This document shows, in pieces, positions 8,996-30,976 of a stretch of DNA of 64,000 nt. Source of the stretch: Propionivibrio soli. Its GTDB lineage: Bacteria > Pseudomonadota > Gammaproteobacteria > Burkholderiales > Rhodocyclaceae. The stretch spans positions 1 through 64,000 of the forward strand of contig NZ_JANZKY010000003.1 of assembly GCF_025770765.1 (NCBI RefSeq), given 5' to 3'. Under the pieces are notes generated by a model. That model did not search any database and was not told the DNA's origin. It saw only the letters and a list, made by a program, of their open reading frames with translations. The stretch's first letter is position 1, and the number at the start of each line of letters is the position of its first letter. A program made the position numbers and the translations under genes.

Positions 8996-9077
8996 TTTTT
9001 ACAGCGTCCTCTCTTGTTCCAAAAAAGTCATTGGTCTGTATGCCAGTCAGTCATCCGGCCAACTCGAGTATGGCTAT

Positions 9078-9098
9078 TAGACCACCGCTAAAGGTCTA
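9078..9098. repeat. Short inverted repeat upstream of dinB
   Basis: TAGACC at 9078-9083 and GGTCTA at 9093-9098 form a perfect 6-bp inverted repeat with a 9-base spacer. It lies between the divergent HD-GYP and dinB genes. A related GGTCTGTA occurs near 9033. It may be a protein-binding site; no known consensus was recognised. Confidence 0.3.
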
Positions 9099-9246
9099 TA
9101 GTGCGCGAGTGAGACTTCAACCGCGCCGTGCAACAGGACGTAGAACGCACTATGGCTCAGATGCCTGGCTTACACGCGGGCCCGGGGCCGCGTACATCCC
9201 GTGGACGCGTTGCATGAAAGCGCAGGAAGGCTTAATGAATGCGATA

Positions 9247-9266
9247 AACTGTACGGATGAACAGTA
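9247..9266 (+). promoter_or_regulatory. LexA (SOS) box overlapping the dinB start codon
   Basis: The bases AACTGT-ACGGATGA-ACAGTA contain CTGT (9249-9252) and ACAG (9261-9264) separated by exactly eight bases. This is the LexA consensus CTGT-N8-ACAG, with the matching outer TA on the right. The dinB ATG (9257-9259) lies inside the spacer, so bound LexA would cover the translation start and probably the transcription start. A binding site here fits the established SOS control of dinB. Confidence 0.85.
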
Positions 9267-14321: not shown

Positions 14322-14344
14322 AAAAGCGGGCGCCGAAGCGCCCG
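14319..14344 (-). terminator. Rho-independent terminator of the porin gene
   Basis: On the minus strand the stem CGGGCGC, loop TTCG and stem GCGCCCG (14344-14327) are followed by C and six T residues (14325-14320). This is an intrinsic terminator with an extra-stable UUCG tetraloop. It stands 30 bases after the porin stop codon, and its T tract overlaps the stop codon of the convergent XRE gene. Confidence 0.88.
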
Positions 14345-14374: not shown

Positions 14375-15505
14375 CTAGAACATATGGCGAATACCGAGCT
14401 GGTAAGCCTGCTGATAGGTCGTGCCAGACGGAAGCGTGGAGATGCTCGCTTTCGTCAGGGTGTCGTCGTCCTGATTGATCTTTCCATAGGCGACGTAGAG
14501 GTTTGTCCGCTTGCTCAGGTTGTGGAAGTAAGCGGCTCCCCACATGCTGAGTGAATCGTCGTGGGTCGCGGAGTTGATGTAATCGAGTTTTGCCTTGGCA
14601 TAGACCAACGTCGCTTTCCCATTCGTACCGACGGGAGCGGCCAGCCCGACGGTCCACTGCTTGCGCGAGTCCTTGGTTTCCGCCCCGCTACTCAGCATGG
14701 TGTTCTTTGCATAGTTGTACTCGCCGTACGCAGCGTCCAAACGAACAACTCCAAAGTCGTAGGCACCGGCGATGTTCCAGACGTTGCCAGCGTCGTAAGT
14801 GCCGTCGATACCGGCGACCGCGCTACGGTTCTGCAGCTTGTTCCGCTCATAACTAGCGCCTAGAAGTGCCGGGCCGTTGACGTAGTGAGCGGCGACGGTC
14901 CACAAGCGGTTGTTGGTGTTGGCGGCGGTATTCTGAGCGGCGGCCGTGATTCGGGTCGGTTCGACTTCCTGAGCCGCCGTGTCGTTTCCGGCTGTTGAGA
15001 ATCCAGCCTTCAGTTGTAGGCCGTTCCAAGTCGGGGAGAGATAGGCAACAAAGTTGCCGATGCGCGCCTGGTCGATATATACGGGGCTCACTTGCGCGAC
15101 GGTGGTTCTGCCATTGGCGGACGCGCCGCCCACCAACTGATCGTGGAAGGTATCGCGACGGCCGATCTCGATTTCCCCCCAGTTCTTGCTGGCGAGGCCC
15201 ACCGTGGACCAACGGCCGAAGGTACCGGTTTGCGTCGACAATCCGGTATCCAGACTCAATCCGGCTTCAAGCCGGAACTTCGCTTCAAGGCCGTCACCCA
15301 GCGTCTCGGAACCTTTGAAACCAACCCGCGAACCCGATTGACCTCCGGACTGGACGGCGCTCAGACTCTTTGAACCGCGAACTGGGCTGTCGTTGGCAAA
15401 CGTGTAATTTCCGTCGGCTACGCCGTAGACCGTCACGTTCGTTTGCGCCATTGCAGCGACGGGAAGCAGGCCGGCGACTGCCAGTACGATTGCTTTCTTC
15501 TGCAT
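14375..15505 (-). CDS. Gram-negative general porin
   Basis: The 376-residue protein has a cleavable signal peptide (MQKKAIVLAVAGLLPVAAMA). It then shows betaproteobacterial porin features: QTNVTVYGVADGNYTF, a GSRVGFKGSETLGDGLEAKF segment, the GLSLDTG loop and WSTVGLASKNWGEIEIGRRD. It ends in alternating hydrophobic strands with terminal Phe in YQLGIRHMF, the outer-membrane assembly signal. It should form a trimeric 16-strand pore for small hydrophilic solutes. A GGAGGAG ribosome site lies before the ATG and a strong terminator follows. It is downstream of the pgmB-like gene on the same strand, with 123 bases between them, so a separate promoter is likely. Confidence 0.93.
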   Translation of the reverse strand: MQKKAIVLAVAGLLPVAAMAQTNVTVYGVADGNYTFANDSPVRGSKSLSAVQSGGQSGSRVGFKGSETLGDGLEAKFRLEAGLSLDTGLSTQTGTFGRWSTVGLASKNWGEIEIGRRDTFHDQLVGGASANGRTTVAQVSPVYIDQARIGNFVAYLSPTWNGLQLKAGFSTAGNDTAAQEVEPTRITAAAQNTAANTNNRLWTVAAHYVNGPALLGASYERNKLQNRSAVAGIDGTYDAGNVWNIAGAYDFGVVRLDAAYGEYNYAKNTMLSSGAETKDSRKQWTVGLAAPVGTNGKATLVYAKAKLDYINSATHDDSLSMWGAAYFHNLSKRTNLYVAYGKINQDDDTLTKASISTLPSGTTYQQAYQLGIRHMF

Positions 15506-15628: not shown

Positions 15629-16333
15629 TCATGGGTTGCTTTTGCTTTTCGTTATCTGGCGATCTCGATACCGCTGCTCGATCTGCTTCAAAATGGCGGT
15701 GGGCGTGATTCCGGAGAAACCGCTAATCACGAGATCGGCATCCTTGAGTGATTGCGGGTCTCCAATTCCAACGACATGCATCCCCGCGTTACGCGCAGCC
15801 GTCACACCGGAGGCTGAATCCTCGAACACGACGCACAATGGCGGAGGCATGGAGAGGCGGTCCGCAGCCTTGAGAAAAACTTCGGGATCGGGCTTTGCCA
15901 CGGTGGTGACATTGCCGTCGACGACCGCATCGAAGAGTGATGCGAGTCCGGTCCGCTCAAGGATGGTTGGCGTGTTCTTGCTGGCACTGCCGATCGCCGT
16001 CTTGATGTTCTTCGCCCGCGCTTGCTTGACGAACGTTCTGACGTTGGGCAGTACCTCGGATGGTTGCATCCGGGTAACGTAGTCGAGGTACCAGGCGTTC
16101 TTCTTCTCCGCCAGTGCATCGAGTTCGTCGCCGCTCGCTCGAATGCTCACCAGGCCGAGAATGATCTCAAGGCTTCTCGTCCGAGATACGCCTTTGAGCA
16201 GTTCATTGGTTTCAGGCGATAACTCGAAACCCATTTCGTTGGCCAGCTTGCGCCAGGCTTGGTAGTGGTATTTGGCGGTGTCGACCAACACGCCGTCGAG
16301 ATCAAAAATGAAGCAGGCGATTTCCGAGTGCAC
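15629..16333 (-). CDS. HAD-family beta-phosphoglucomutase-like phosphatase/mutase
   Basis: The 234-residue protein has a GTG start with GGAG five bases upstream. HAD motif I is FIFDLDGVLVDT (nucleophile Asp and acid/base Asp). The helical cap contains HYQAWRKLANEMGFELS and LLKGVSRTRSLEIIL, which match beta-phosphoglucomutases. Motif II is AIGSASKN, the motif III Lys lies in VAKPDPEVFLKAAD, and motif IV is VVFEDSASGV. It would interconvert beta-glucose 1-phosphate and glucose 6-phosphate or act on a related sugar phosphate. It is the last gene of the tctCBA-GH3 row, separated from GH3 by a long perfect-looking hairpin. The association with a GH3 enzyme suggests sugar-phosphate handling. Confidence 0.85.
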   Translation of the reverse strand: MHSEIACFIFDLDGVLVDTAKYHYQAWRKLANEMGFELSPETNELLKGVSRTRSLEIILGLVSIRASGDELDALAEKKNAWYLDYVTRMQPSEVLPNVRTFVKQARAKNIKTAIGSASKNTPTILERTGLASLFDAVVDGNVTTVAKPDPEVFLKAADRLSMPPPLCVVFEDSASGVTAARNAGMHVVGIGDPQSLKDADLVISGFSGITPTAILKQIEQRYRDRQITKSKSNP

Positions 16334-16358
16334 GATGACTCCAGCAAGAGGGGTGATT

Positions 16359-16393
16359 GGTTCGCCTTGCCCTCCGTGAGGGCGAGGCGAACC
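16359..16393. repeat. 16-bp stem-loop between the GH3 and pgmB-like genes
   Basis: GGTTCGCCTTGCCCTC (16359-16374), loop CGT and GAGGGCGAGGCGAACC (16378-16393) pair over 16 positions with one wobble. No T tract follows on either strand. In an operon such a hairpin typically shields upstream message from 3' exonucleases or partly stops transcription, lowering pgmB expression relative to GH3. Confidence 0.7.
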
Positions 16394-16408
16394 TGAATGG
16401 ATCTTTCG

Positions 16409-17983
16409 TCAGAACGAAATGGGGAGGTTTCCGACAGGGAGGTGCTCGCCGGCCAAAGCGAGAGCCGCAATACGTTGGCATTCCTTGCCGTCGAATCCGT
16501 AAACGATCCGCTTGATGCGGCCGAACTCACGAGCGGCGTACGGGCAGCCGTACAGGACGATGGCGGAGAGCTTCTCGCGCAGCCCGTCGATGATCGACAC
16601 CATGCGTTGGCAGGCGTCGGACGAGCCGGTGTAGGACACCGACTGGTTGGCCAGAACCATGACCACGCTCTTGTATTTCAGCGTCGTGGCCAGGACGTGC
16701 TCGATCTGCGGCTTGACCGGAAATTCGGGCAGGGCCATGAAGTCGCCGTTCTTGAAGCGGCTCTTCAGCACGTCGGTGGCGACTTCCAGGTCGCACTTGT
16801 CGGCCTTGATCGCGCCGCTGACCGGATCCTTGTAGAGCACGCCTTCCTGGATGATGAACAGGTGCTTCTCGGCGGTGTCGAGCGCCAGCGTGTCGACGCC
16901 GTCGAGCTGGGCAGCGACCGCCTTTTCGGCCATCACGCGGGTGATGTTGCGGTCGTTGTCGTCGAGTTCGCTCTTCTGCGCGGGCTTCAACGTCTTGTTC
17001 TGCGCTTCGATGACGTGCTGCGCGGCGCTGGTGATCTGTTCCTCGCTCACCATGCCTTCACGCCAGGCGTCCAGCATGTAGCCGTAGGCTTCGCGGGCGC
17101 CCATGCGGTAACTGGTCATCACCATGTCGTTGCCGGCGGCCATCGCGAGCTTGTGGCAGTCGGGCAGCGGGAAGTAATTGGTCATGCCGATCATCGCGAA
17201 GGAGTCGGTCATGATCAGGCCGTTGTAGCCGGTGCTGCGCAGCAACTGGACGGCCTTCGGCGAGATGCTCGCCGGATAGACTGGGTCGAGCTTGGGGATC
17301 ATGATGTGCCCCATCATCACGCCGGACAGGTCGGCATGCCCCATCGCATAGGTGTAGGGATACATCTCGTGCTCGAGGATCTTCTGCTCGTCGCCGCTCA
17401 GGTAGACCATGCCGATGTGGTTGTCGACCTCGGACTCGCCGAAGCCAGGGAAGTGCTTGGCGGTGACGATCATTCCGTTGTCCTGGTAGCCGCGGATCGT
17501 GGCGGCGGCCATGCGGGCGACGAATTCCTTGGTGGCGCCGTAGGAGCGGGAACCAACGCAGCACGCCTTGGGGTTCTCGGCAAGGTCAACGATCGGCCCG
17601 AACACGACGTTGTAGCCGACCTTCTTGGCCTCGATGGCGGTGATGCGGCCGTATTCGTAGGCCAGTTCCTCCGAACCGGTAGAGCCGATGGCCATCTGGT
17701 ACGGCATTGACACGATGCCCTTCGGGTAGCCGTACTCCATGTCCTCGCAGATCAGGATCGGGTAGTCGGCGGTGGCCAGCACCTTGTCCAGGATGTCCCG
17801 CTCGCTCTTCACGTAGTAGTTGTCCTTGACGTACTTGTGCGAGATGTGGATGCCGCCCAGCGCGCGGTTCTTGATGAGTTCGATGACGAAATCGAAGTCG
17901 TCCTGATCGATCGGGTTGCGCATGAGCAGCATCTGACCGATCTTCTGTTCTACGTTGAGGCTGTTGATGTCGAGGGGCTTCAT
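16409..17983 (-). CDS. Glycoside hydrolase family 3 protein (NagZ-type His/Asp dyad)
   Basis: The 524-residue protein starts at ATG 17983 with AGGAG upstream. The GH3 N-terminal barrel shows IGQMLLMRNP, the substrate-binding Lys-His in TAKHFPGFGESEVDNHIG (Asp-x-His acid/base dyad as in NagZ) and the nucleophile Asp in LIMTDSFAMIGM. A C-terminal domain follows (about 400-520; VVMVLANQSVSYTGSSDACQ). There is no signal peptide, so it acts in the cytosol, probably on an imported N-acetylhexosaminide or similar beta-glycoside. Some His-type GH3 enzymes have been reported to work as phosphorylases, which would fit the adjacent sugar-phosphate mutase gene. It follows tctA in the same direction. Confidence 0.85.
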   Translation of the reverse strand: MKPLDINSLNVEQKIGQMLLMRNPIDQDDFDFVIELIKNRALGGIHISHKYVKDNYYVKSERDILDKVLATADYPILICEDMEYGYPKGIVSMPYQMAIGSTGSEELAYEYGRITAIEAKKVGYNVVFGPIVDLAENPKACCVGSRSYGATKEFVARMAAATIRGYQDNGMIVTAKHFPGFGESEVDNHIGMVYLSGDEQKILEHEMYPYTYAMGHADLSGVMMGHIMIPKLDPVYPASISPKAVQLLRSTGYNGLIMTDSFAMIGMTNYFPLPDCHKLAMAAGNDMVMTSYRMGAREAYGYMLDAWREGMVSEEQITSAAQHVIEAQNKTLKPAQKSELDDNDRNITRVMAEKAVAAQLDGVDTLALDTAEKHLFIIQEGVLYKDPVSGAIKADKCDLEVATDVLKSRFKNGDFMALPEFPVKPQIEHVLATTLKYKSVVMVLANQSVSYTGSSDACQRMVSIIDGLREKLSAIVLYGCPYAAREFGRIKRIVYGFDGKECQRIAALALAGEHLPVGNLPISF

Positions 17984-18133
17984 GAAGGATCTCCTGGAGT
18001 TGCGGCGTACTTCAGGCCGTCCGGCCGGGCGTTTTCTTCGGCTGCGGCCGCTTTTTGGGCGAAAAAAGGTCCTCCTTGCCAGCAATCGCGGGCCGGGGAC
18101 GTCTAGCTAGAAGAGGTGGTTCGGTGAGGCTCA

Positions 18134-18177
18134 GCCGGGGAGGGGCAAACTCCCGGCGGCGGAGCAGGGATCTGCTC
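18134..18177 (-). terminator. Tandem stem-loops just after tctA
   Basis: GAGCAG/CTGCTC (18162-18167 with 18172-18177) and GCCGGGGAG/CTCCCGGC (18134-18142 with 18150-18157, one bulge) form two consecutive hairpins directly after the tctA stop codon. There is no T tract, so this is more likely a 3' stabiliser or partial terminator than a complete stop before GH3. Confidence 0.4.
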
Positions 18178-19694
18178 TAGTCGTCTTCCTTAAAGGCCTC
18201 CTCGCGGCGCTTCTTCAGCGCGGGCGACAGAATCAACACCACGAGCAGCGCGGCCATGAGCAGCAGGAAGGCCGAGATGGGACGAGTGACAAAGACGCTC
18301 CAGTCACCTCCGGAAATGACCAGCGCACGGCGCAAGTTTTCCTCCATCATCGGCCCGAGGACCAGGCCCAGCATCAGGGGAGCCACTTCCGCGCCGAGAC
18401 GCATCAGGATGTATCCACAGAGGCCGAATATCGCGACCATCCAGATGTCCCACACCGTGTTGTTGGTCGTGAACACGCCGATGGCGCAGAACAGAACGAT
18501 TGACGGGAAGAGCCACCGGTACGGCACGGTGAGTAGCTTCACCCACATGCCGATCATCGGTAGGTTCAGTACCACGAGCATCAGGTTGCCGATCCACATC
18601 GAAGCGATCAGGCCCCAGAACAACTCAGGATTGCTGGAAATGACCTGCGGGCCCGGCTGGATATCGTGGATCATCATCGCGCCGATCATCAGTGCCATGA
18701 CGGGATTGGGCGGGATGCCCAGCGTGAGCATCGGCACAAAGGAGGCTTGTGCTCCGGCGTTGTTTGCCGATTCGGGGCCTGCAACGCCGCGAATGTTCCC
18801 TTTTCCCAGTGGGACTTCGTCCGGCTTCAGTTTCTTCTTCTTTTCGATGGTGTATGACACGAAAGCTGCAAGCATCGCTCCTCCTCCGGGAAGCACACCG
18901 ATGATCGACCCGATCGCCGAGCCACGGAGAATGGGCGGAAGCATGGCCTTCATATCTTCCTTCGTCGGCATCAGGCCGGTCAGCTTCCGCGTTAGCAGAT
19001 CACGATGGATTTCACCTCGCGAAAGGTTCTGCATGATTTCACCGTAGCCGAAAACGCCCATTGCCACCACGACGAAGCCGATTCCATCGGCCAGTTCGGG
19101 CATGTCGAACGAATATCGCTCTACTCCCGAATTTACGTCGGTGCCGATCATGCCGACCAGCATGCCGATGAGGATCATGGCGATGGCCTTCGGTAACGAC
19201 CCGCTGGCCAGCACCACCGCACCGATCAGGCCAAAGACCATCAACGAGAAGTAGTCGGCGGGACCGAACTTGATCGCGACGCTGGCGAGAGGGACGGCGA
19301 ATGCCGCCAGCCCGACGGTGCCGATGGTCCCGGCGATAAACGAGCCGATGGCGGCGGCCGACAGCGCGGGCCCGGCTCGACCGTTCTTTGCCATTTCATA
19401 TCCGTCCAGCGTTGTGACGATGCTGGACGGCTCGCCGGGCAAATTGACAAGGATTGCCGTGGTCGAACCACCGTACTGGGCTCCATAGTAGATCCCGGCA
19501 AGCATAATCAGTGCAGTAACCGGCGAGAGGGAATAGGTGGCCGGCAACAGCATGGCGATAGTGGCGACGGGGCCAAGCCCGGGCAGAACGCCGATAAGGG
19601 TTCCCATCAGGCAACCGATCAGGGCGTAGCTGAGATTCTGGAGCGTCAGAGCTACGCTGAACCCAATGGAGAGATTGTCGAGCAGAAAATTCAT
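18177..19694 (-). CDS. tctA: Tripartite tricarboxylate transporter large permease
   Basis: The 505-residue length is standard for TctA. About a dozen membrane segments and the family signatures GTLIGVLPGLGPVATIAMLL (about 36-55), ALIMLAGIYYGAQYGGSTTA (about 62-81), GVLPGGGAMLAAF and LGIPPNPVMALMIGAMMI are present. It is the channel subunit of a secondary uptake system powered by an ion gradient and fed by a periplasmic TctC receptor. It follows tctB by 24 bases. The substrate cannot be told from the permease. The transporter is linked in one direction to GH3 and pgmB-like genes and faces chemoreceptor and lyase genes. Confidence 0.95.
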   Translation of the reverse strand: MNFLLDNLSIGFSVALTLQNLSYALIGCLMGTLIGVLPGLGPVATIAMLLPATYSLSPVTALIMLAGIYYGAQYGGSTTAILVNLPGEPSSIVTTLDGYEMAKNGRAGPALSAAAIGSFIAGTIGTVGLAAFAVPLASVAIKFGPADYFSLMVFGLIGAVVLASGSLPKAIAMILIGMLVGMIGTDVNSGVERYSFDMPELADGIGFVVVAMGVFGYGEIMQNLSRGEIHRDLLTRKLTGLMPTKEDMKAMLPPILRGSAIGSIIGVLPGGGAMLAAFVSYTIEKKKKLKPDEVPLGKGNIRGVAGPESANNAGAQASFVPMLTLGIPPNPVMALMIGAMMIHDIQPGPQVISSNPELFWGLIASMWIGNLMLVVLNLPMIGMWVKLLTVPYRWLFPSIVLFCAIGVFTTNNTVWDIWMVAIFGLCGYILMRLGAEVAPLMLGLVLGPMMEENLRRALVISGGDWSVFVTRPISAFLLLMAALLVVLILSPALKKRREEAFKEDD

Positions 19695-19718
19695 GGCATG
19701 GTTCTCTCTGGTGGTCGG

Positions 19719-20204
19719 TCAGGCGGTAAGGAACGAAGGCAGCACAGGCAGGTTGAGCTTGAGCATGACCACAAAAAGGACGAAACAGGATGCCGCGAGA
19801 ACCGAAGCGAGTAGCAGCGCCTCGCGCCAGACGAACTCTCGTCCGGCCATCGCCGCCACGATTACGGTGGCAAAAACGGAGACGAGCAGCCCCATCGGTG
19901 GCAGTCCTACACTTGGCAATCCGACGAGCAAGACGCCGAACAGCAGGTTCGCGCCGAGGATGAAGATCACCGGGCGGACATAAAGCTTACCGATATTGCC
20001 TTCCGGTTTATGATCCTGGCCTAGCGATGTCACGCTGATCCACGCGCCGAGCAGGATGAGTAGGCACGATACGTAGAACGGGAAAAAGCCCGCCCCCATG
20101 CGAGCGGAGGTGCCGACGGAATATCCTTTTGCTCCGATAGCGAAAGCAATTCCCATCAACATGCAGAGAAGGCCGAATACGAAGTTCTGCCGGTGTTTGA
20201 CCAT
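19719..20204 (-). CDS. tctB: Tripartite tricarboxylate transporter small permease
   Basis: The 161-residue protein has four hydrophobic helices, the normal TctB shape. Characteristic stretches are FVFGLLCMLMGIAFAIGAKG, VGTSARMGAGFFPFYVSCLL and the C-terminal VLAASCFVLFVVMLKLNLPVL. GGAGAAAC precedes the ATG. It forms the membrane complex with TctA. A 154-base gap with two stem-loops separates it from the receptor gene tctC, which is usual where the binding protein is made in excess. Confidence 0.92.
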   Translation of the reverse strand: MVKHRQNFVFGLLCMLMGIAFAIGAKGYSVGTSARMGAGFFPFYVSCLLILLGAWISVTSLGQDHKPEGNIGKLYVRPVIFILGANLLFGVLLVGLPSVGLPPMGLLVSVFATVIVAAMAGREFVWREALLLASVLAASCFVLFVVMLKLNLPVLPSFLTA

Positions 20205-20303
20205 CTTGTTTCTCCAATGGAGCGGGAACTGATCTTCTCGCTCCGTTGCGGGCCCAGACCGTCTTGAGGCGGATTAAGGGCGTGTTCCTATTGTGTGGTG
20301 CAT

Positions 20304-20339
20304 CGAATGTGGGTGTGGCATTACATCAGCCCACATTCG
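20304..20339 (-). repeat. 10-bp stem-loop between tctC and tctB
   Basis: CGAATGTGGG (20304-20313) and CCCACATTCG (20330-20339) pair perfectly around a 16-base loop, 19 bases after the tctC stop. A second stem GGAGCG/CGCTCC (20219-20224, 20239-20244) lies close to the tctB ribosome site. These probably protect the tctC message and limit transporter-subunit expression. Confidence 0.6.
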
Positions 20340-20358
20340 TGCGGAGATTTATCGCTGA

Positions 20359-21327
20359 TTACTCTTCGAGCGAGATGCGTGCAGATTCGACGACGTCCTT
20401 GTAGATTCCGGCTTGCTGCTTGACGAACGTGCCCAGTTCCTTGCCGTTCAGCGGCGCGGGCGTGATGCCGGAGGCTTTGAGTTTTGCCTGGACGTCCACG
20501 TTATTGACTGCACCCAGAAGAGCTTTCTCGTAGGCGGCGACGACGTCCGAAGGAGTTCCGGCTTTGACGAACCATCCTTGCCAGAGAGGTAAGGACAGGC
20601 CGCCGAACCCTTCTTCTTCGCCGATCCGTTTGACGTTGGGAATCGCAGGAGAACGCGCTGTGTCCGACATGGAGAGCGCCTTGATTTTTCCATCCTTGAG
20701 GAAAGGCATGGCAGTGGAGAGGACCAGGATGGCGCTTTCGACGTGCCCGCCCATTAGGTCGGTAGCGATCTGGGCGCCGCCCTTGTAAGGCACGTGAACC
20801 ATCGACACCTTGGCATTCTTGTTGATCAGCGCACCGTAGAGGTGCTGCATCGTTCCTATGCCTGGCGTCGCGTAAGTGAAGTCCTTCTTGCCCTTACGCA
20901 GATCGGCAATCAGGTCGGGAAGTGTGTTGTACGGCGAGTTCGAGTTGACGGCGACGATCATCGGGAAAGACGTCATGCGGCCGAGCGGCTGGTAGTCCTT
21001 TTCCCAGTTGACCTTGACCTTGCTGTTCACCATCGGGATGACGACGGTGTCCGTGCCACCCATGTAGATCATGCTGCCGTCCGCTGGGCCGTTGATGACC
21101 TTCTGCGCCGCGAGCATGCCGCTTGCACCGGTAACGTTCTCGACGATGACCTGCCGCCCAAGTTGCTTGGACATTTCGGAGGCAACAGTACGGGAAACGA
21201 AGTCAGCGCTTCCACCGGCCGAGTATCCCACGATCACGGAAATGGGCTTGTCGGACTGCGCGGAAGCCACGCATGTCACGAGCGCGCAGCTGGCGGCGGC
21301 GAACTTAAGAATATTTCTGCAATTCAT
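20359..21327 (-). CDS. tctC: Bug-family periplasmic substrate-binding receptor
   Basis: The 322-residue protein has a signal peptide (MNCRNILKFAAASCALVTCVASA). The Bug/TctC fold shows ISVIVGYSAGGSADFVSRTV (the ligand-loop PxGGxxD region, here YSAGGSAD), VENVTGASGMLAAQKV, FTYATPGIGTMQHLYGAL and VPYKGGAQIATDLMGGHVES. These receptors bind carboxylates, often through bridging waters to the loops. It is the first gene of the operon. A leader of about 120 bases separates it from the promoter at 21453-21481. The clear neighbouring transporter genes make this a complete tripartite system rather than an orphan Bug protein. Confidence 0.93.
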   Translation of the reverse strand: MNCRNILKFAAASCALVTCVASAQSDKPISVIVGYSAGGSADFVSRTVASEMSKQLGRQVIVENVTGASGMLAAQKVINGPADGSMIYMGGTDTVVIPMVNSKVKVNWEKDYQPLGRMTSFPMIVAVNSNSPYNTLPDLIADLRKGKKDFTYATPGIGTMQHLYGALINKNAKVSMVHVPYKGGAQIATDLMGGHVESAILVLSTAMPFLKDGKIKALSMSDTARSPAIPNVKRIGEEEGFGGLSLPLWQGWFVKAGTPSDVVAAYEKALLGAVNNVDVQAKLKASGITPAPLNGKELGTFVKQQAGIYKDVVESARISLEE

Positions 21328-21452
21328 ATCAGTTCATCCTTTGTGAATACAGCTCTTGAGATAGCAAATTTCCGCATGGCAGATCCCCTCCCCATTGCGG
21401 TGGCGAACCGCTACGTCCGCCAACCGGGCCTTTAGCAAAGGCCGATACGATT

Positions 21453-21481
21453 AATATAGACATACATTTTTTGTGTGTCAA
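21453..21481 (-). promoter_or_regulatory. Sigma-70-like promoter of the tctC operon
   Basis: On the minus strand TTGACA (21481-21476) is a perfect -35 box. It is followed by a 17-base spacer and TATATT (21458-21453) as -10. This is the best-looking promoter in the window. The CAATACAA element at 21486-21496 sits directly upstream of the -35 box, and an imperfect ACATACA/TGTGTGT repeat covers the spacer. Confidence 0.8.
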
Positions 21482-21485
21482 CATA

Positions 21486-21496
21486 TTGTATTGTAT
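21486..21496. promoter_or_regulatory. Operator candidate O1 (11-mer shared with the regulator gene)
   Basis: TTGTATTGTAT here is identical to the 11-mer on the opposite strand at 25867-25877, just upstream of the GntR-LacI hybrid regulator start. It contains CAATACAA on the minus strand. It abuts the -35 box of the tctC promoter and would overlap a plus-strand promoter (TTGTGT-16-TATTTA, 21472-21499). Confidence 0.6.
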
Positions 21497-21593
21497 TTAA
21501 TCTGATCTTTGTGTTCCATCCGTAAAATGGCTAGGCCATTAGGCGGTTGCTGTCTGGTCTTGTACCGTTCAATTCTATTTGTGTGCTATTGTT

Positions 21594-21612
21594 TCAATAC
21601 AATGTGTATTGA
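21594..21612. promoter_or_regulatory. Operator candidate O2: perfect 8-3-8 palindrome
   Basis: TCAATACA (21594-21601), ATG and TGTATTGA (21605-21612) form a perfect palindrome containing the CAATACAA octamer. An extended -10-like TGCTATTGT lies at 21584-21592, so a bound repressor would block the start of chemoreceptor transcription. The site lies 58 bases before the chemoreceptor ATG. Confidence 0.7.
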
Positions 21613-21670
21613 CGGCTCGGACACGTGTTCGGCTTCGATTCCAGTTCTGCAATGCCAAGGAGAACAGGCG

Positions 21671-23296
21671 ATGAAACGCATCACGATTGCAACTCGTCTT
21701 GCACTGATGATAGGAGCATCAGTATTGGCTCTGCTGATCGTCGGTCTTGTCGGGATATCGGTCGCCGGCAAGGTGGCGGACAGTATCCGCAGGATCAACG
21801 AGGAAAGCTTGGGCAGCATCCAGACGCTAGCCGAGGCGCGTCAGATTTTCATGGAGATCCGGGTAAACGGCTACCTGCACATCATCACATCGACGGAATC
21901 CGGCATGAAGAAAATCGAGGCCAAGCTAGACGAAGATATGGGGCGGCTGACCAACGTGCTAAAAGGATACGAGCGGCATGTGGCCGATGACGAGGACCGA
22001 AAACTGCTTGAAGCGACGCTCGTCAATCTCAAGAACTACGATGCCATCGTCAAGAAATTGGTGCTTCCGAAGTCGCTGGATGACGAGAAGGAAGCGGCAC
22101 GCAGCCTCATGGCACTGCGCGGGACGCAAGCCGGCGCCGCCGCGCTGGCAGGCTTCGACGAACATATTGCCTACAACAAGAAGCACGCCGAGGCGGTTGC
22201 CGCCGAAGCGGCGGCCAACGCAGCGCTCGGCAGAACGGTCTCGCTGGTTACCATCGCAGCCGGGCTGGTGGCGGTTACTCTGGTGGGCTGCCTGCTTCTG
22301 CGCAGTATCAGGTCGTCGCTGGGTCAGATCCGGTCCATGGTCGGCCGCATCGAGAGCGACCTCGATTTCACCACCCGAGTGGAAGTCCGCCGCATGGACG
22401 AGATCGGCGAGGCGACGCAAGCCCTGAACCGTTTGCTCGATAAGCTGCAGACCAGCTTTAGGTCCATTGCTTCGGGCGCTCGTTCTGTCGCGGACGCTGC
22501 TAATCAGATGGTCGTCACGTCCAGCGAGGTGTCTAGGGCCTCACAACTGCAAAGCGAGGCCGCGTCGAACATGGCAGCTACTGTTGAGCAAATGACCGTC
22601 AGCATCAATCACGTCGCCGATCGGGCACAGGAGGCCAATCGTCTATCCGGTGATTCTGGCCGGCTGGCGATCATCGGCGCGAAGGTGATTGGCCAGACTG
22701 TGAGCGACATCCAGGAAATTGCCGGCACCGTTCATGAGGCTGCGGACGTTATCCAGGGTCTTGAGCAGAGCAGCCAGAAGATATCCGGTGTGGTAGCGGT
22801 GATCAAGGAAGTCGCGGATCAGACCAACCTCTTGGCGCTCAACGCCGCGATTGAGGCGGCACGCGCCGGCGAGCAGGGACGCGGCTTTGCTGTTGTAGCG
22901 GACGAAGTACGCAAGCTGGCAGAGCGCACCGCTGTTGCTACTCAGGAGATTGCCTTGACGATTGACGCGATGCGCACCAGCGCCGGCAGCGCGGTCGTCA
23001 GCATGCAAGGAGTGGTGGGCAAAGTGACCGTGGGTGTGGAGCGTGCCAAGGAGGCCAGCGTATCGATTCAGCAGATCAGCTCCGGTAGTCAGGCCGCTGT
23101 CGGTATGGTTGAGGAAATTGCATCGGCAATTCGCGAGCAGGGTGCGGCCACCAACAATATCGCCGTACAGGTTGAGCGGATTGCCCAGATGTCAGAGGAG
23201 AGCAGCGCGTCTGCTGGCAACAGTGCTACCGGCGCCGGAGACCTCGATCGTTTGGCCGCCGACATGCAGCGTATTGTCTCTGCATATAAGGTTTGA
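21671..23296 (+). CDS. Methyl-accepting chemotaxis protein
   Basis: The 541-residue protein starts at ATG 21671 with AAGGAG ten bases upstream. A membrane segment (about 8-30) is followed by a periplasmic four-helix-bundle sensor (about 35-190) and a second membrane segment (about 193-215). A HAMP domain follows ([20 protein letters not shown] onward), then a long cytoplasmic coiled coil. The kinase-control hairpin reads [20 protein letters not shown] then [20 protein letters not shown]. There is no C-terminal CheR-docking pentapeptide. It is divergent from tctCBA and upstream of a lyase gene. It may sense the substrate taken up by this transporter; that link is inferred from position and shared operator elements. 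Confidence 0.93.
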
Positions 23297-23392
23297 TTTC
23301 ATTCGTCGAGTCCGTTTCTTGTCTAGGGGAGACGGCAAGCAGACAGCGGGTGCGGGATCGTATCAACCGTTCTCTCTTGAGCGAGGTATGCA

Positions 23393-24754
23393 ATGTCCAT
23401 CGGAATGTTTGAATCCTTCATGACGGCGCATTGGTTTAGCGCCGGGGCGAAAGAAGTCTGGACCGACGAGACGACGTTGCAGACTTGGCTGGATGTTGAA
23501 GCAGCATTGGCGGAGAGCCAGGCGGAACTTGGGGTGATTCCCGCGTCGGCTGCTGCCATGATAAGGACCAAGGCCGATGCACGTCTTTTCGACCGGGCGC
23601 AACTGGCACGCGACATCGCCTTCATGCAACATCCTTTGGTACCGGTCCTGCGCCAGTTTGAGATGCTGTGCGGCGACTCCGCTGCGGGCTATCTCCACTG
23701 GGGAGCCACCACGCAAAACATCCTCGATACGGCGTGTTCTATGCAGATGGCTCGGACGCATGGTCTCATGCTTAACGAGCTCGATGTCGCCCTCAATGCG
23801 CTCACCACGTTGGCTATGAGGAACAAGGACGTCGCCATGGCCGGGCGCACGCACGGCCAGCATGCATTACCGATGACTTTCGGGTTCAAGGTTGCCGGCT
23901 GGCTAGACGAACTGGACCGGGATCGGGCGCGTCTTCGCGAGCGTTTTTCCTCCTCATTCACCGTATCGATGAGCGGCGCGATCGGAACGTTCGGCGCCAC
24001 CGGAAAGATAGGGCGTGAAGTCGAGGTTCTTGTGGCGAAGAAGCTAGGGTTGCAGCCCAGCATTGTGCAATTACGCGCGTCCTTCGACCGGGTTGCAGAC
24101 TATTGCGTGGCTCTCGGTTTGCTGGCGGGGACAACGCAACGGATAGGGCAGGATATCGCATTCATGCAGCGTACTGAGGTTGGCGAGGTGGCCGAGGCAT
24201 TCCACCTGGGCAAGGTAGGCAGTTCGACAATGGCCCAGAAGCGTAATCCCACAGTAGCCTTGCTTCTCGTCAGCCTGTCGCGGTTGCTTAGGGGGCGGGT
24301 ACCCTTGGTATTGGAATCCATGGTACGCATGGACGAAGGCGATTCGTCGGCGACCAACGTTAGCGATGTCTTGTTGCCGGAAATCAGCATCATCGCTGCT
24401 TCCATTGGCGAGACGCTTTCGCATCTCGCCAACGGGTTATCGGTCGATGCGGATGCCATGCGCCGCAATCTTGAGTTGACCCACGGTCTCGTTGCCTCCG
24501 AAACGGCGATGATGGGGTTAGCTCACGTGATGGGACGGCATGAAGCTCACCACCTGCTCTACGAAGCCGCCCAACGTGCCCAGTCGGAACACATTCCCTT
24601 GCTCACCGCTCTTCGGGAACATCCGGTCTTTCAAAGCCAACCTCTGCCATCAGAACTGGACCATTGGCTGGACCCCGCCGCTAATGTCGGCGAATCCTCG
24701 TCCATCGTTGAGGACGTCGTAAACCGATTGTCGCGAAATCGCCCGATTAATTAA
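23393..24754 (+). CDS. Fumarase/adenylosuccinate lyase superfamily lyase (PcaB-like)
   Basis: The 453-residue protein has the three conserved regions of the superfamily. These are WGATTQNILDT (region 1), GRTHGQHALPMTFGFK with catalytic His (region 2) and the mobile-loop signature GSSTMAQKRNP (region 3). A C-terminal helical domain resembles ADSL_C. It is not the housekeeping adenylosuccinate lyase by sequence look; nearest types are 3-carboxymuconate cycloisomerase and purB-like lyases of carboxylate catabolism. The superfamily cleaves C-N or C-O bonds to release fumarate, or lactonises muconates. It starts 96 bases after the chemoreceptor gene and overlaps the convergent regulator gene by 8 bases. 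The substrate could be a substituted succinate or aspartate brought in by TctCBA. Confidence 0.82.
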   Translation: MSIGMFESFMTAHWFSAGAKEVWTDETTLQTWLDVEAALAESQAELGVIPASAAAMIRTKADARLFDRAQLARDIAFMQHPLVPVLRQFEMLCGDSAAGYLHWGATTQNILDTACSMQMARTHGLMLNELDVALNALTTLAMRNKDVAMAGRTHGQHALPMTFGFKVAGWLDELDRDRARLRERFSSSFTVSMSGAIGTFGATGKIGREVEVLVAKKLGLQPSIVQLRASFDRVADYCVALGLLAGTTQRIGQDIAFMQRTEVGEVAEAFHLGKVGSSTMAQKRNPTVALLLVSLSRLLRGRVPLVLESMVRMDEGDSSATNVSDVLLPEISIIAASIGETLSHLANGLSVDADAMRRNLELTHGLVASETAMMGLAHVMGRHEAHHLLYEAAQRAQSEHIPLLTALREHPVFQSQPLPSELDHWLDPAANVGESSSIVEDVVNRLSRNRPIN

Positions 24755-25862
24755 CCTCGATCGGGCTTGCTACTGACGCACCTTCCTTCCGCGTGACGCG
24801 CGTCAGCCGGACACCGTAAGGCAAGCTGGGGTTGAGCCAGCGATCATTGATCGCCTGGTAAAGTGCCTCTACTTGATCGTCGATACTGCTCCCAATGATT
24901 TCGAAGAAACCGCCACGTTCGTTGGGAAGATCCGTACGTCCGAGCAATACCACACTGAGATGCTCGGGGACTGAAACACCCAGGTCCATTAGCATGCGCC
25001 GGAACCGGGCGCCATCTTCGACGCCCCAGACAATCAACGCGGAAAAAGGCAGTCGCCCGTCGTCGACCTGCACCATCAACTCGGCAACAAGGCTTTGCAC
25101 GTAGTCCTCGTCTGGCAGGAGAGGAACCTTGATGGTGTGGAAACTGATGTCGGGGTGTGCTTTCTCAAGGTACTCCCAACGGCGAAAACCAAGCTGCGTT
25201 GCCAGAAGTGGCCGCGATGTGGCGGCGAAAGCTATCTTCCGGTGTCCTCGTTCGAGAAGTCGTTGTGTGGCTTCGGCAAGCGGCTCGCCCCACTCGGTGC
25301 CGACCGCCTCGACGTCAGCACCTACCAACGCAGTACCGTCAACAGCGATCACGTCTGTCTTGTCGCGAATCGCGGCAAGCACTTCGATAGGGATCGGCCG
25401 GTAAGTCGATTGGACAACGCAGGCATCGAATCGCGGCAACCCCTTCAGAACCGCCCGCGCGTGGTTTGGGTCCGAATACGAAACCTCGAGCACTTTCTGG
25501 CCATTGGCGACAAAACGCTCGTGCAGTTTTTCGATAAGCACGCGTCCTCGAGCAATACTGATCGAACGCCGCAGCAGGAGTACTGATCGCGATTCGGCCC
25601 GTGCGGAAGAGACGATTTTTGATTCGCCTCCGTCGCGCGGTTCCCCGGCGTCGGAACCATGCAAGAGGAAGAACGTGCCGCGCCCCACTTGTGAGTCAAC
25701 AAGGCCGCGCGCCCTCATGTCATGAAAGACGCGTTGAACTGACATTTGGGAGAGGCCGAAGCGACGCATCAGTTCGCGGACTGTCGGCAACTTGTCCCCG
25801 GCACGTGCAGTCGTGGACAAGTCGTTGAGATACTTTTCAAGTTCAATGGTTGTATTACGCAT
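24747..25862 (-). CDS. GntR-type regulator with LacI-like ligand-binding domain
   Basis: The 371-residue protein has an N-terminal GntR winged helix (about 1-75): LPTVRELMRRFGLSQMSVQR and FHDMRARGLVDSQVGRGTFF. It is joined to a periplasmic-binding-protein-like domain of LacI type (about 100-360), with RGHRKIAFAATSRPLLATQL, SALIVWGVEDGARFRRML and VPEHLSVVLLGRTDLP. This AraR-like architecture is ligand-responsive repression. ATG 25862 is preferred; the longer frame to 25961 lacks a ribosome site. The CAATACAA element lies 5 bases upstream of the start codon. This suggests autorepression and control of the neighbouring transporter and chemoreceptor promoters that carry the same element. Confidence 0.85.
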   Translation of the reverse strand: MRNTTIELEKYLNDLSTTARAGDKLPTVRELMRRFGLSQMSVQRVFHDMRARGLVDSQVGRGTFFLLHGSDAGEPRDGGESKIVSSARAESRSVLLLRRSISIARGRVLIEKLHERFVANGQKVLEVSYSDPNHARAVLKGLPRFDACVVQSTYRPIPIEVLAAIRDKTDVIAVDGTALVGADVEAVGTEWGEPLAEATQRLLERGHRKIAFAATSRPLLATQLGFRRWEYLEKAHPDISFHTIKVPLLPDEDYVQSLVAELMVQVDDGRLPFSALIVWGVEDGARFRRMLMDLGVSVPEHLSVVLLGRTDLPNERGGFFEIIGSSIDDQVEALYQAINDRWLNPSLPYGVRLTRVTRKEGASVASPIEVN

Positions 25863-25866
25863 ACTG

Positions 25867-25892
25867 ATACAATACAACGCAATTGATGGGGC
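25867..25892 (-). promoter_or_regulatory. Regulator promoter with operator candidate O3
   Basis: On the minus strand TTGTATTGTAT (25877-25867) repeats the O1 11-mer exactly. TATTGT within it could be a -10 box. TTGCCT about 18 bases further upstream, near 25896, could be the -35. Transcription would then begin at or next to the ATG 25862, giving a leaderless message. The operator overlapping the -10 box implies autorepression. Confidence 0.5.
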
Positions 25893-26030: not shown

Positions 26031-27065
26031 TCAGCTGGCCGTTAATATGGGGAGGCGGCGATTCAAGCGCAGGACGATGACTGCCGCAAGCAAGGCCAAA
26101 CCGAGCAAGGCCGGAATCGCTGGCTCCGGCACCTGCAACTGCAGCGCCGCCAGCATGGCATTGCCGAGCACTGCATGCACCGCCTTGGTCGGGTGGATGC
26201 CGTCCCAGAAAACGTAGCTGTCGGGGTTGGCACAGACGCTGCCCCCGCCGGTAAAGGTGGAGTCGTCGCCCGTGTAGCAGCGGTCCGACGTATTGCTGAG
26301 GCCAAAAGCGGCCGGATCGGCCACAACCTCGTTGAGCAGGCTGTAGGTATCGAAGCCGATGATGTCGAGCCCGGCGTAGCTGGCCTCGAGCTGGCTGAGT
26401 GCCGCGCCCAGGAGGCCGTTATAGAGGAGCGAAAGCTGGTGCGCTGCCACTTTGGCTGCGGTGCCAAGCTCGCTGACCCGTGGCGTGAGCCCGAGGTCCG
26501 GGGCATTCGGAACCAAAAACTCGCGTGCGCCCTCGGCGTACAGGGCGAGGATGCCGGAGACGATGTCGTTCACGGTGGCAGCCACGTTCGGTATCGGATT
26601 GCCGAACACGTCACTGCTCTTGCCCATGATGATGTCTTGCAAATTATTGGAGCCTCCCCAGACGACGTACAGCGCCGTCGAATTGGCGGCGCCGGGTAGC
26701 GCGGTGTACGCGGCGATTTGGCTCAGTATGCCCATGAAGGGCTGGCCGAAGATCTGGTAGCGCGTGCGCGCGCCGCCAAACGCATAGTTGTTGCCGCCGG
26801 CGGTGGAGGGAGCGGACACAAAGCCGAGGCCTTGAGCGACAACGTCGGAGTAGTTAGGCCCGTTGGTCGCGCGCCCGCCAGAGTCATAGGGTGCGCCGGG
26901 AATCGTTGCTGGCCAGCCGGGCGAGTGCGGAACGTGGGCATACACGTTTTGCACGTTGCCGACGTCGGTCAGGCTATCGCCGAAGAAATAGATGCCGCTA
27001 TACGGCGCGGCGAAGGCTGGCAGTGAAGTGAGGCAGAAAAATAGTACGGCAAGGGTACGGCGCAT
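26031..27065 (-). CDS. Secreted SGNH/GDSL lipase-esterase with PEP-CTERM anchor
   Basis: The 344-residue protein has a signal peptide (MRRTLAVLFFCLTSLPAFA). Block I is YFFGDSLTDVGN with nucleophile Ser. Block III is VVWGGSNNLQD, and block V is FWDGIHPTKAVHAVL with the catalytic Asp-His pair. The C-terminus VPEPAIPALLGLALLAAVIV followed by RLNRR is a PEP-CTERM sorting signal: VPEP motif, membrane helix, basic tail. It should be processed by an exosortase system encoded elsewhere. It likely hydrolyses lipids or short esters outside the cell. It is transcribed alone, convergent with nothing; the GntR-type gene lies downstream on the same strand. Confidence 0.9.
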   Translation of the reverse strand: MRRTLAVLFFCLTSLPAFAAPYSGIYFFGDSLTDVGNVQNVYAHVPHSPGWPATIPGAPYDSGGRATNGPNYSDVVAQGLGFVSAPSTAGGNNYAFGGARTRYQIFGQPFMGILSQIAAYTALPGAANSTALYVVWGGSNNLQDIIMGKSSDVFGNPIPNVAATVNDIVSGILALYAEGAREFLVPNAPDLGLTPRVSELGTAAKVAAHQLSLLYNGLLGAALSQLEASYAGLDIIGFDTYSLLNEVVADPAAFGLSNTSDRCYTGDDSTFTGGGSVCANPDSYVFWDGIHPTKAVHAVLGNAMLAALQLQVPEPAIPALLGLALLAAVIVLRLNRRLPILTAS

Positions 27066-29749: not shown

Positions 29750-30976
29750 ATGAGCGACCGGCAAACGAGTTACCAGCAGATCGATCTGCGGGACGGTAAG
29801 CCGATCAAGATGTGGACACGCGGCGTCCCGGTCGAAGAAGAAGCGCGCGAACAACTGTTGCACACGGCACGGATGCCGTTCATTTTTCACCATCTCGCGG
29901 TGATGCCCGACGTGCACGTTGGCAAAGGGTCGACCATTGGCAGCGTGGTCCCGACACAGGGTGCGATCATCCCCGCCGCGGTTGGCGTCGACATCGGCTG
30001 CGGGATGATGGCTGCGTGCACGACGCTGACGGCGGTCGATCTCCCGGATTCATTGCACGCGTTACGCTCCGCCATCGAGAATGCCGTTCCACATGGGCGT
30101 ACGCCCGGGAAGCATGACCGGGGTGCCTGGACTACGCCGCCGGAGAACGTCGATGCCGCTTGGGACGGACTCGCCGCAGGTTTCCGCCGCATCACGGAGA
30201 AGTATCCTCGCCTACTCAATACGAATAACCGCAACCATTTGGGCACGCTTGGAACCGGCAACCATTTCATCGAGATTTGCCTGGACGAGGCGCAGCGCGT
30301 CTGGATCATGCTGCATTCAGGATCGCGCGGCGTCGGCAACGCGATCGGTAGCCACTTTATCGAGCTTGCACAGAGGGACATGCGGCAACACATCGCCGAT
30401 TTGCCGCATCGAGACCTGGCATACCTCGAGGAAGGCAGCCGGCACTTTGCCGACTACGTCGAGGCCGTGGGTTGGGCGCAGGATTTCGCGCGGCGCAATC
30501 GCGCCGTGATGATGCAGAACATCATTGAGGCTGTACGTCGCGTGATTTCGAAACCGTTCGAGGCGAACGTCGAGGCCGTTAACTGCCATCACAACTACGT
30601 GCAGAAGGAAATGCACTTCGGAACCGAAGTGTTCGTGACACGCAAAGGCGCGGTCTCTGCGCGCAAAGGCGAGTTGGGCATCATCCCGGGGTCGATGGGA
30701 GCCAAGAGCTTCATCGTGCGCGGTCTCGGCAACGAGGAGTCATTCTGCTCATGCAGCCACGGCGCGGGGCGGACGATGAGCCGCACGCAAGCGAAGAAGC
30801 GTTTCTCCGTCGCTGATCAGGAACGAGCTACGGCGCATGTCGAATGCCGTAAGGATGCCGACGTGATCGATGAGATACCGATGGCGTACAAAAACATCGA
30901 CGCGGTGATGAACGCTCAACGCGATCTGGTCGAAGTCGTACACACGCTGCGGCAGGTGGTGTGCGTCAAGGGGTGA
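29750..30976 (+). CDS. rtcB: RNA-splicing ligase RtcB
   Basis: The 408-residue length is typical of bacterial RtcB. The metal and guanylate site residues are in GVDIGCGMMAA (Asp-x-x-Cys), LGTGNHFIEI, HSGSRGVGN, VNCHHNYVQKE and the nucleophile His in CSHGAGRTMSR. It joins 2',3'-cyclic phosphate or 3'-phosphate ends to 5'-OH RNA ends using GTP and Mn2+. The ATG is preceded by GAGGGC. No rtcA or rtcR gene is adjacent, so it may act in general RNA repair, and its control is not evident from the region. Confidence 0.95.
   Translation: MSDRQTSYQQIDLRDGKPIKMWTRGVPVEEEAREQLLHTARMPFIFHHLAVMPDVHVGKGSTIGSVVPTQGAIIPAAVGVDIGCGMMAACTTLTAVDLPDSLHALRSAIENAVPHGRTPGKHDRGAWTTPPENVDAAWDGLAAGFRRITEKYPRLLNTNNRNHLGTLGTGNHFIEICLDEAQRVWIMLHSGSRGVGNAIGSHFIELAQRDMRQHIADLPHRDLAYLEEGSRHFADYVEAVGWAQDFARRNRAVMMQNIIEAVRRVISKPFEANVEAVNCHHNYVQKEMHFGTEVFVTRKGAVSARKGELGIIPGSMGAKSFIVRGLGNEESFCSCSHGAGRTMSRTQAKKRFSVADQERATAHVECRKDADVIDEIPMAYKNIDAVMNAQRDLVEVVHTLRQVVCVKG

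Follow-up and report, generated by a model that had tools for sequence, protein, structure and literature searches.

The 64-kb window analyzed here, from contig NZ_JANZKY010000003.1 of Propionivibrio soli (all positions below refer to it), contains a locus in which a tripartite tricarboxylate transporter (TTT) is grouped with a lyase of the fumarase/aspartase superfamily, a GntR-LacI hybrid regulator, a chemoreceptor, a glycoside hydrolase family 3 (GH3) enzyme, and a beta-phosphoglucomutase (bPGM) (Table 1). An earlier inspection, the sequence-only reading, had outlined an eight-gene locus here; all eight genes are present where and in the orientation it had placed them, with Pfam and NCBIfam in agreement with its labels. 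Its boundary has to be moved, as the porin gene that follows bPGM on the same strand also belongs to the locus. The minus-strand genes are transcribed in the order tctC, tctB, tctA, GH3, bPGM, and porin, with successive gaps of 154, 24, 193, 75, and 123 bp. The three transporter proteins, encoded in a single gene run, all score above their Pfam cutoffs (TctC, PF03401, 167 bits; TctB, PF07331, 54.5 bits; TctA, PF01970, 522 bits). The regulator gene overlaps the 3′ end of the lyase gene by a few bases on the opposite strand, and the GC content shows no sharp break along the locus.

Table 1. Genes and control elements of the TTT-lyase locus in the 64-kb window
Feature	Position	Strand	Basis or detail
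Intrinsic-terminator-like site after porin	14327-14344	-	7 pairs, all G-C; loop 4; T-run
Porin (Porin_4), final gene of the minus-strand run	14375-15505	-	Pfam
bPGM, beta-phosphoglucomutase	15629-16333	-	TIGR01990
GH3 enzyme, proposed phosphorylase	16409-17983	-	PF00933; D187-N-H189 dyad; nucleophile D260
tctA, large transporter membrane part	18177-19694	-	PF01970
tctB, small transporter membrane part	19719-20204	-	PF07331
Inverted repeat, tctC-tctB gap	20304-20339		10-bp arms, 16-nt loop
tctC, periplasmic binding protein, module core	20359-21327	-	PF03401
tctC promoter-like TTGACA-17-TATATT	21453-21481	-	11/12 consensus positions
Predicted operator site 1, touches tctC -35 element	21479-21496		Matrix score 15.0; one exact TTGTATTGTAT
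Predicted operator site 2, before chemoreceptor	21592-21614		Matrix score 16.2, best in window; CAATACA-ATG-TGTATTG palindrome
Methyl-accepting chemotaxis protein, 4HB sensor domain	21671-23296	+	4HB_MCP_1, HAMP, MCPsignal
Fumarase/aspartase-superfamily lyase, module core	23393-24754	+	Lyase_1, ADSL_C; signature SSTMAQKRNP
GntR-LacI hybrid regulator, module core	24747-25862	-	GntR helix-turn-helix; LacI-type part
Predicted operator at regulator promoter	25867-25884		Matrix score 11.6; second exact TTGTATTGTAT

Querying the species-genome collection with the lyase yielded 45 loci, of which seven are under 15 kb long; since a hit depends on an exact match to one of six peptides, there may be more. 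The lyase was more than 40% identical in 39 of the 45 (55 to 66% as listed), and these relatives were accompanied by the regulator in 37 cases and by TctC in 36, each again at more than 40% identity. The transporter parts varied. TctA was present in 11 of the 36 TctC loci (Rhizobiales and Azospirillum), the window TctA being 63 to 65% identical to the rhizobial ones, while in 20 of the 25 TctC loci without TctA there was a weak porin match. A CUT1-type ATP-binding cassette (ABC) transporter precedes the lyase in a Devosia locus (L099), and a major facilitator superfamily (MFS) gene does so in two Opitutales loci (L090 and L097). Four Rhizobiaceae plasmids carry the arrangement TctA-TctB-regulator / TctC-lyase, and TctC at an E value of ≤1e-60 occurs in 4 of 72,556 plasmid records, these being exactly the records with a lyase of at least 55% identity. 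In contrast, tblastn at E ≤ 1e-3 detected neither GH3 nor bPGM in the 45 lyase loci and the four plasmid modules, and the chemoreceptor gave only two distant matches in the 45 loci (L091 and L096), both away from the module.

Conservation thus extends to TctC, a distinct fumarase/aspartase-superfamily lyase, and the GntR-LacI regulator, around which the transporter parts vary; the window genome alone has added GH3, bPGM, and the chemoreceptor. The proposal that the eight genes form a conserved unit has to be given up, the more so since the sequence-only reading had itself named a GH3-pgmB pair missing from beside tctCBA in related genomes as the observation that would speak against it. We found no account of a TctC-lyase-regulator module in the open-access literature searched. 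What emerges is a small, partly plasmid-borne module, present in dozens of species, with a conserved operator and a lyase subfamily without assigned function.

The window locus carries the three core genes together with the shared operator. The control-region elements noted from the sequence proved real, two lying in the gap between tctC and the chemoreceptor gene and one before the regulator gene. The palindrome CAATACA-ATG-TGTATTG at 21595 to 21611 has no second exact copy in the window; when up to three mismatches are allowed, the same pattern occurs twice, compared to a mean of 0.61 by chance. Among 116 regions upstream of module genes, four of them from the window, ATACAATACA was found in 45 and CAATACAA in 56, against 0.0 and 1.2, respectively, in single-base shuffles. 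A palindromic matrix derived from these regions yields sites such as ATACAATATGTATTGTAT, and its three best sites in the whole window all fall in the tctC-chemoreceptor gap (starting at 21592, 21479, and 21597, the last with a score of 14.4). In 100 Markov-model sequences the best score averaged 11.3 and reached 18.2 at most, so that score alone gives no significance to the regulator-promoter site and only moderate significance to the others, for a matrix that had included the window's own sites.

The rarity of the operator in the host genome and its conservation among relatives are more telling. The exact 11-mer TTGTATTGTAT has two copies in the 4.76-Mb genome, at 21486 to 21496 and 25867 to 25877, i.e., in the tctC/chemoreceptor and the regulator promoters, where about 0.4 would be expected from base composition by our own arithmetic. 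Seven further places match it with one mismatch, and the backwards pattern occurs at five places with at most one mismatch. Among the loci with at least two module genes, 34 of 37 had a site of at least 14.4 bits upstream of a module gene (the exceptions being L074, L084, and L089), compared to 15 of 560 stretches of 380 bp drawn at random from the same loci, although these 37 relative loci had trained the matrix. The plasmid modules had not, and all four carry a site between regulator and tctC (best scores 28.8, 19.6, 17.2, and 20.2). These data uphold the view of the locus as one regulated uptake-and-catabolism set, since the operator is both conserved and rare. The first operator site abuts the promoter-like element of tctC, and the regulator probably also controls its own gene through the predicted operator at its promoter.

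Regarding transcript boundaries, the clearest minus-strand terminator-like site lies directly past the porin gene and likely ends the tctC transcript. From the end of tctA to the end of porin, the scans listed no minus-strand terminator-like site and no promoter-like site, in keeping with a predicted single transcript from tctC to porin. The terminator scan is weak overall (14 sites, with shuffles averaging 11.5), and promoter-like sites in the region numbered 2 against a mean of 4.1. The inverted repeat between tctC and tctB may protect the tctC message.

How the host came by the module is suggested by its distribution in 59 relative genomes, in which the lyase search reached 1e-80 only in the host itself and in one other genome, at 38% identity. 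The module was therefore probably acquired by transfer. Besides the host, the searches of sampled genomes gave nothing beyond 38% lyase matches. The 38% relative (L061) was rejected as a module member, as it adjoins another TctC gene and other enzymes and represents a different system.

The regulator combines a GntR helix-turn-helix (41 bits) with a LacI-type Peripla_BP_3 part that at 23.9 bits falls below the cutoff of 26.5. The assignment as a GntR-LacI hybrid nevertheless holds because a structural model (27 sequences, mean predicted local distance difference test score [pLDDT] of 87) matches PurR and LacI-type chains best; with PurR and LacI both at the top, this match does not separate a sugar from a purine effector. 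In a profile alignment with LacI, PurR, GalR, and RbsR, the invariant R228 stands opposite LacI R197, while the positions at N246 and D274 are not kept; all three aligned LacI positions contact the inducer. No solved structure was close to TctC or to the regulator.

Relatives of the regulator outside the module point toward sugars. Of ten plasmid records with such a relative, four are the module itself, one (H88) is unannotated, and the remaining five each place a distant regulator (28 to 42% identical to that of the window) next to a CUT1-type sugar transporter. Three of these five also have a sulfatase, three a sugar kinase, and one a gene annotated as phosphosulfolactate synthase. When six distant-regulator loci outside the training set were scanned, two, from Roseateles (L169) and Sinorhizobium (L173, unannotated), carried GTACAATACATATTGTAT (28.1) just after the regulator gene; no operator score exceeded 12.2 in the other four. 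The Roseateles sp. plasmid locus (L169, 5487 to 17570) contains a glucokinase gene, two Gfo/Idh oxidoreductase genes, the 34% regulator relative, a CUT1-type transporter, and a sulfatase gene, the near-perfect operator copy lying at 10116. In plasmid pAtS4c (L168, 3874 to 10074), a 42% relative stands beside a CUT1-type transporter and the gene annotated as phosphosulfolactate synthase, an arrangement suggestive of a locus for a sulfonate or a sulfo-sugar.

A substrate that is both acidic and sugar-like, in line with what had been proposed from the sequence, is therefore plausible, given that the distant regulators adjoin CUT1-type transporters in all five annotated records and that two of the distant loci share the operator. 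The CUT1 variant of the module in Devosia also speaks for a sugar-bearing core substrate, as do two Polaromonas loci in which tctC adjoins a glucokinase gene (TIGR00749 scores of 288.7 and 292.5 bits; cutoff, 225). As a general link, the glucokinase was rejected, being found in 2 of the 36 TctC loci.

On these grounds, the conserved core can be read as a system that senses, imports, and splits one acidic compound. In the window, the GntR-LacI regulator, probably a repressor, would bind the TTGTATTGTAT-type predicted operators in the tctC/chemoreceptor gap and at its own promoter. The acid that relieves repression would most likely be a substituted dicarboxylate bearing or accompanying a sugar; the chemoreceptor may steer the cell toward this nutrient, and the porin and TctCBA would import it. 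The lyase would then cleave the nutrient by elimination, probably releasing fumarate. In the window genome only, GH3 would also act by phosphorolysis on a beta-glucoside, either a form of the nutrient itself or a compound imported along with it, and the resulting beta-glucose-1-phosphate would be converted by bPGM to glucose-6-phosphate. Taken whole, this account, regulated uptake and lyase cleavage of an acidic, probably sugar-bearing nutrient with glucose salvage by GH3-bPGM phosphorolysis, has in our estimate an even chance of being correct.

Several observations weigh against it. GH3 and bPGM are missing from all relative loci and plasmid modules, and a glucokinase pattern beside tctC is lacking in 34 of the 36 TctC loci, which together indicate that the core works without sugar genes. 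A gap of 193 bp separates tctA from GH3, and the matrix scan of the window found no operator site upstream of GH3, bPGM, porin, or the lyase gene. The effector pocket of the regulator matches only one of the three LacI sugar contacts. The host could use free glucose as well, judging from ROK-family matches at five places in its genome. A single-sequence AlphaFold model of GH3 had a pLDDT of 37.5 and was not used. As for GH3 enzymes at large, LpqI, with a NagZ-type site, tested as a hydrolase, and another GH3 is cited as lacking phosphorylase activity (PMC6572805).

Many of the same facts lend themselves to another explanation, in which the core serves a single substituted succinate or aspartate without any sugar. 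GH3, bPGM, and porin would then form a glucoside cassette with no link to the core, inserted downstream of tctA and expressed either by read-through or independently. The absence of GH3 and bPGM from relatives, the rarity of the glucokinase pattern (both cases in Polaromonas), the gap upstream of GH3, and the occurrence of the core alone on plasmids all fit such a cassette. It sits less easily with the stretch from tctA to porin, devoid of promoter-like and minus-strand terminator-like sites, or with the sugar transporters, sulfatases, and sugar kinases beside distant regulators, two of whose loci share the operator, or with the CUT1-type transporter ahead of the Devosia lyase. We consider this a serious possibility, if short of an even chance, and close in likelihood to the sugar-bearing nutrient account. 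Ligand screens of TctC and the regulator offer a direct way to assign the module ligand.

Both domains of the lyase score above the cutoffs (Lyase_1, 133 bits; ADSL_C, 58 bits), while the NCBIfam equivalog cutoffs are missed throughout, the scores/cutoffs for PurB, PcaB, XcbD, and CreD being 278/326, 236/356 and 325/595, 360/600, and 232/650 bits, with XcbD the best match. Solved structures match almost equally well (3c8t, 246 bits; trans-aconitate decarboxylase, 243; PcaB, 224). In the superfamily the signature reads SSxMPxKxN; the window lyase has SSTMAQKRN, which keeps Ser, Met, Lys, and Asn and replaces Pro by Ala. The motif SSTMA[QH]KRNP is found in the window lyase and all 25 close relatives in the alignment (A3), in which HWGATTQN and RMDEGD are kept in nearly all lyases and three distant rows retain the usual Pro. 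Since membership by Lyase_1 and ADSL_C stands, the substitution marks a subfamily rather than an exclusion from the superfamily. The enzyme thus shares the fold family and most of the signature loop with XcbD, PcaB, PurB, CreD, and trans-aconitate decarboxylase but differs from them in having MAQKRNP where they have MP-K-N-P, and it reaches no equivalog cutoff. Elimination with release of fumarate is the commonest outcome in the superfamily, in which decarboxylation and cycloisomerization also occur.

XcbD, the best NCBIfam match, acts on a sulfo compound, which raises the prospect that the core substrate is an organosulfonate or sulfated acid, such as a sulfonated succinate, from which the lyase eliminates the sulfo group, the sugar link of the distant regulators then reflecting sulfated sugars. 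Sulfatases beside three, and a phosphosulfolactate synthase beside one, of the five annotated distant regulators would agree with this, and sulfolactate is named among TTT substrates in PMC5812351. Yet the XcbD score of 360 is far below the cutoff of 600, we noticed no gene for sulfite handling in the locus of the window, and the distant regulators are just 28 to 42% identical, all of which makes a sulfonate substrate unlikely. Also tied to the lyase, and in our judgment slightly less probable still, is the idea of a glycoside-splitting eliminase, which would turn an O-glycosyl malate (or an N-linked analogue) into fumarate and free sugar by beta-elimination, with no hydrolysis of the glycosidic linkage. 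The GH3-bPGM phosphorolysis of the window genome and the glucokinase beside tctC in the two Polaromonas loci would then be alternative routes by which the same glucose becomes glucose-6-phosphate. PMC10428015 gives a tentative annotation of a malic acid glucoside for one plant extract, and the "glucosyl malate" of PMC9919735 is part of a gallic acid conjugate.

The GH3 enzyme is clearly a family member (PF00933, 201 bits against a cutoff of 27), with its nucleophile motif TDSFAM in register with TDCLEM. A good ribosome-binding site favors the ATG at 17983 as its start, and there is no evident export signal. The first 330 residues align with N-acetylglucosaminidases, the nearest solved relatives, and the final 263 have no significant match in the PDB (best E value, 0.2). 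D187-N-H189 aligns with the D-S-H of solved GH3 N-acetylglucosaminidases and supplies a His/Asp dyad; D81, R146, K176, H177, D187, H189, and D260 presumably correspond to the sugar-binding and catalytic residues of NagZ. The loop reads KHFPG[HL]G...D[ST]H in all 55 other GH3 loci of the order, compared to KHFPGFG...DNH in the window.

Close relatives of this GH3 were not encountered. The best match other than itself scored 111 bits (self, 1266) in the 59 relative genomes (host included) and 119 bits (self, 1187) in 399 genomes of the order. The own copy alone was found in 398 genomes of the phylum at 1e-34 and in the genus at 1e-25 (1 of 28 genomes). No relative was found among the viral contigs or, using six 8-residue peptides, in the species-genome collection. 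Plasmids gave matches in 411 records, all below 60% identity (21 to 31% among the 30 matches listed). Its orphan status is valid for these collections, a peptide scan being able to miss relatives. As a marker for finding the locus elsewhere, GH3 failed.

The bPGM scored above the equivalog cutoff for beta-phosphoglucomutase (TIGR01990, 216.8 bits against 189.4). No GH65 enzyme was found in the host genome, which makes GH3 the likeliest source of beta-glucose-1-phosphate for bPGM. A Glk-type glucokinase (PF02685) was not found in the host genome either, but this was rejected as proof against the use of free glucose in view of the five ROK-family matches, so that only the missing GH65 supports phosphorolysis. 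The position of GH3 beside bPGM refines the role first given to the enzyme, pointing to phosphorolysis over hydrolysis, and we propose GH3 as a predicted beta-glucoside phosphorylase. According to PMC8950772, GH3 phosphorylases making beta-glycosyl phosphates are linked to the His/Asp dyad, and only two had been characterized as of November 2021. With LpqI a hydrolase and another GH3 lacking phosphorylase activity according to PMC6572805, the dyad appears necessary but not sufficient. An orphan GH3 with the phosphorylase dyad, next to bPGM in a genome without GH65, would nonetheless be well suited to testing for a phosphorolytic pathway dedicated to beta-glucosides, given how few GH3 phosphorylases have been characterized.

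GH3 might instead be a plain hydrolase, a beta-glucosidase or N-acetylglucosaminidase perhaps involved in cell-wall recycling, whose product a ROK kinase phosphorylates, with bPGM an ordinary sugar-phosphate phosphatase/mutase acting on something else. The N-acetylglucosaminidases as nearest solved relatives and the ROK-family matches would suit such an enzyme, and according to PMC6572805 NagZ-like enzymes with the same dyad can hydrolyze. We hold it to be a real possibility but less likely than not, as bPGM lies above its equivalog cutoff with no GH65 to supply it, the host has another NagZ-like GH3 (G000:C10), and GH3 and bPGM share a gene run in Subdoligranulum too. There, on a plasmid of Subdoligranulum variabile (L158, 6264 to 15943), one minus-strand run comprises a GH3 gene (28% identity over 352 residues to the window protein), four Pfam-confirmed sulfatase genes, an alpha/beta hydrolase gene, and a bPGM gene (51% over 211 residues), possibly a desulfation-plus-phosphorolysis locus.

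Within the order the pairing was not seen. In 20 regions of the order, 16 with GH3 had no bPGM and four with bPGM had no GH3 (E ≤ 1e-5). Of five plasmid loci with bPGM that were at least partly annotated, three (L. paracasei, Cetobacterium, and Weissella) have GH65 next to bPGM or at a distance of one gene, and a fourth (Exiguobacterium) has it about 5 kb distant; the Niveispirillum locus was unannotated. The L. paracasei plasmid was rejected as a GH3-bPGM pair, as its bPGM goes with GH65 and its GH3 is about 13 kb off.

Parts of the locus resemble known systems. TTT carboxylate operons (for citrate, adipate, terephthalate, and similar) likewise join TctC, TctB, and TctA with a dedicated catabolic enzyme and a regulator, whereas the window has an AraR-like GntR-LacI regulator, an unassigned lyase subfamily, glycoside enzymes, and a chemoreceptor. 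The TTT-dependent alginate (oligosaccharide) locus of Vibrio sp. C42 is alike in that a porin and a TTT import an acidic carbohydrate, but it has polysaccharide lyases and alginate-specific genes, and its abstract names no fumarase-type lyase, GH3, or bPGM (PMC13390454). GH65-pgmB operons (maltose/kojibiose type) also combine a phosphorylase candidate with bPGM and a sugar-type regulator in converting beta-glucose-1-phosphate to glucose-6-phosphate; the window differs in having GH3 in place of GH65, which would mean beta-glucosides instead of alpha-glucosides, and a TTT rather than an ABC, MFS, or phosphotransferase system sugar importer. With the GH3 phosphorylases Nag3 of Cellulomonas fimi and BglP/BglX (PDB 5vqd), the window enzyme shares the GH3 domain, the His/Asp dyad, the Asp nucleophile, and the lack of an evident export signal, but 5vqd is only its 13th match (79 bits), and its DNH loop, unmatched C-terminal 263 residues, and place in a TTT-lyase run set it apart.

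Some relative loci and neighboring genes deserve mention. In the Opitutales contig L097 (5380 to 6902), two tandem GDSL lipase-family genes lie between a TonB receptor gene and the MFS-lyase pair and might serve to deacylate the lyase substrate. In a Rhizobium gallicum plasmid (L131), the module tctA and lyase each match in two pieces (4848 to 6208 and 9001 to 10334), a sign of decay or sequencing error. Genes for a cyclase, kynureninase, and tryptophan dioxygenase follow the module in L072 (13488 to 16291), and the same gene clusters occur there in L068 and L070; these are probably mere neighbors. In the window itself, positions 26031 to 27065 encode a GDSL lipase-family protein (Pfam) whose C terminus (VPEP, a hydrophobic stretch, and RR) we take, by eye, to resemble a PEP-CTERM sorting signal. 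Farther along, at 29750 to 30976, is a gene for an RtcB-like protein (named by eye), with 56 to 58% homologues in 4 of the 27 other genus members and two copies in two of these four.

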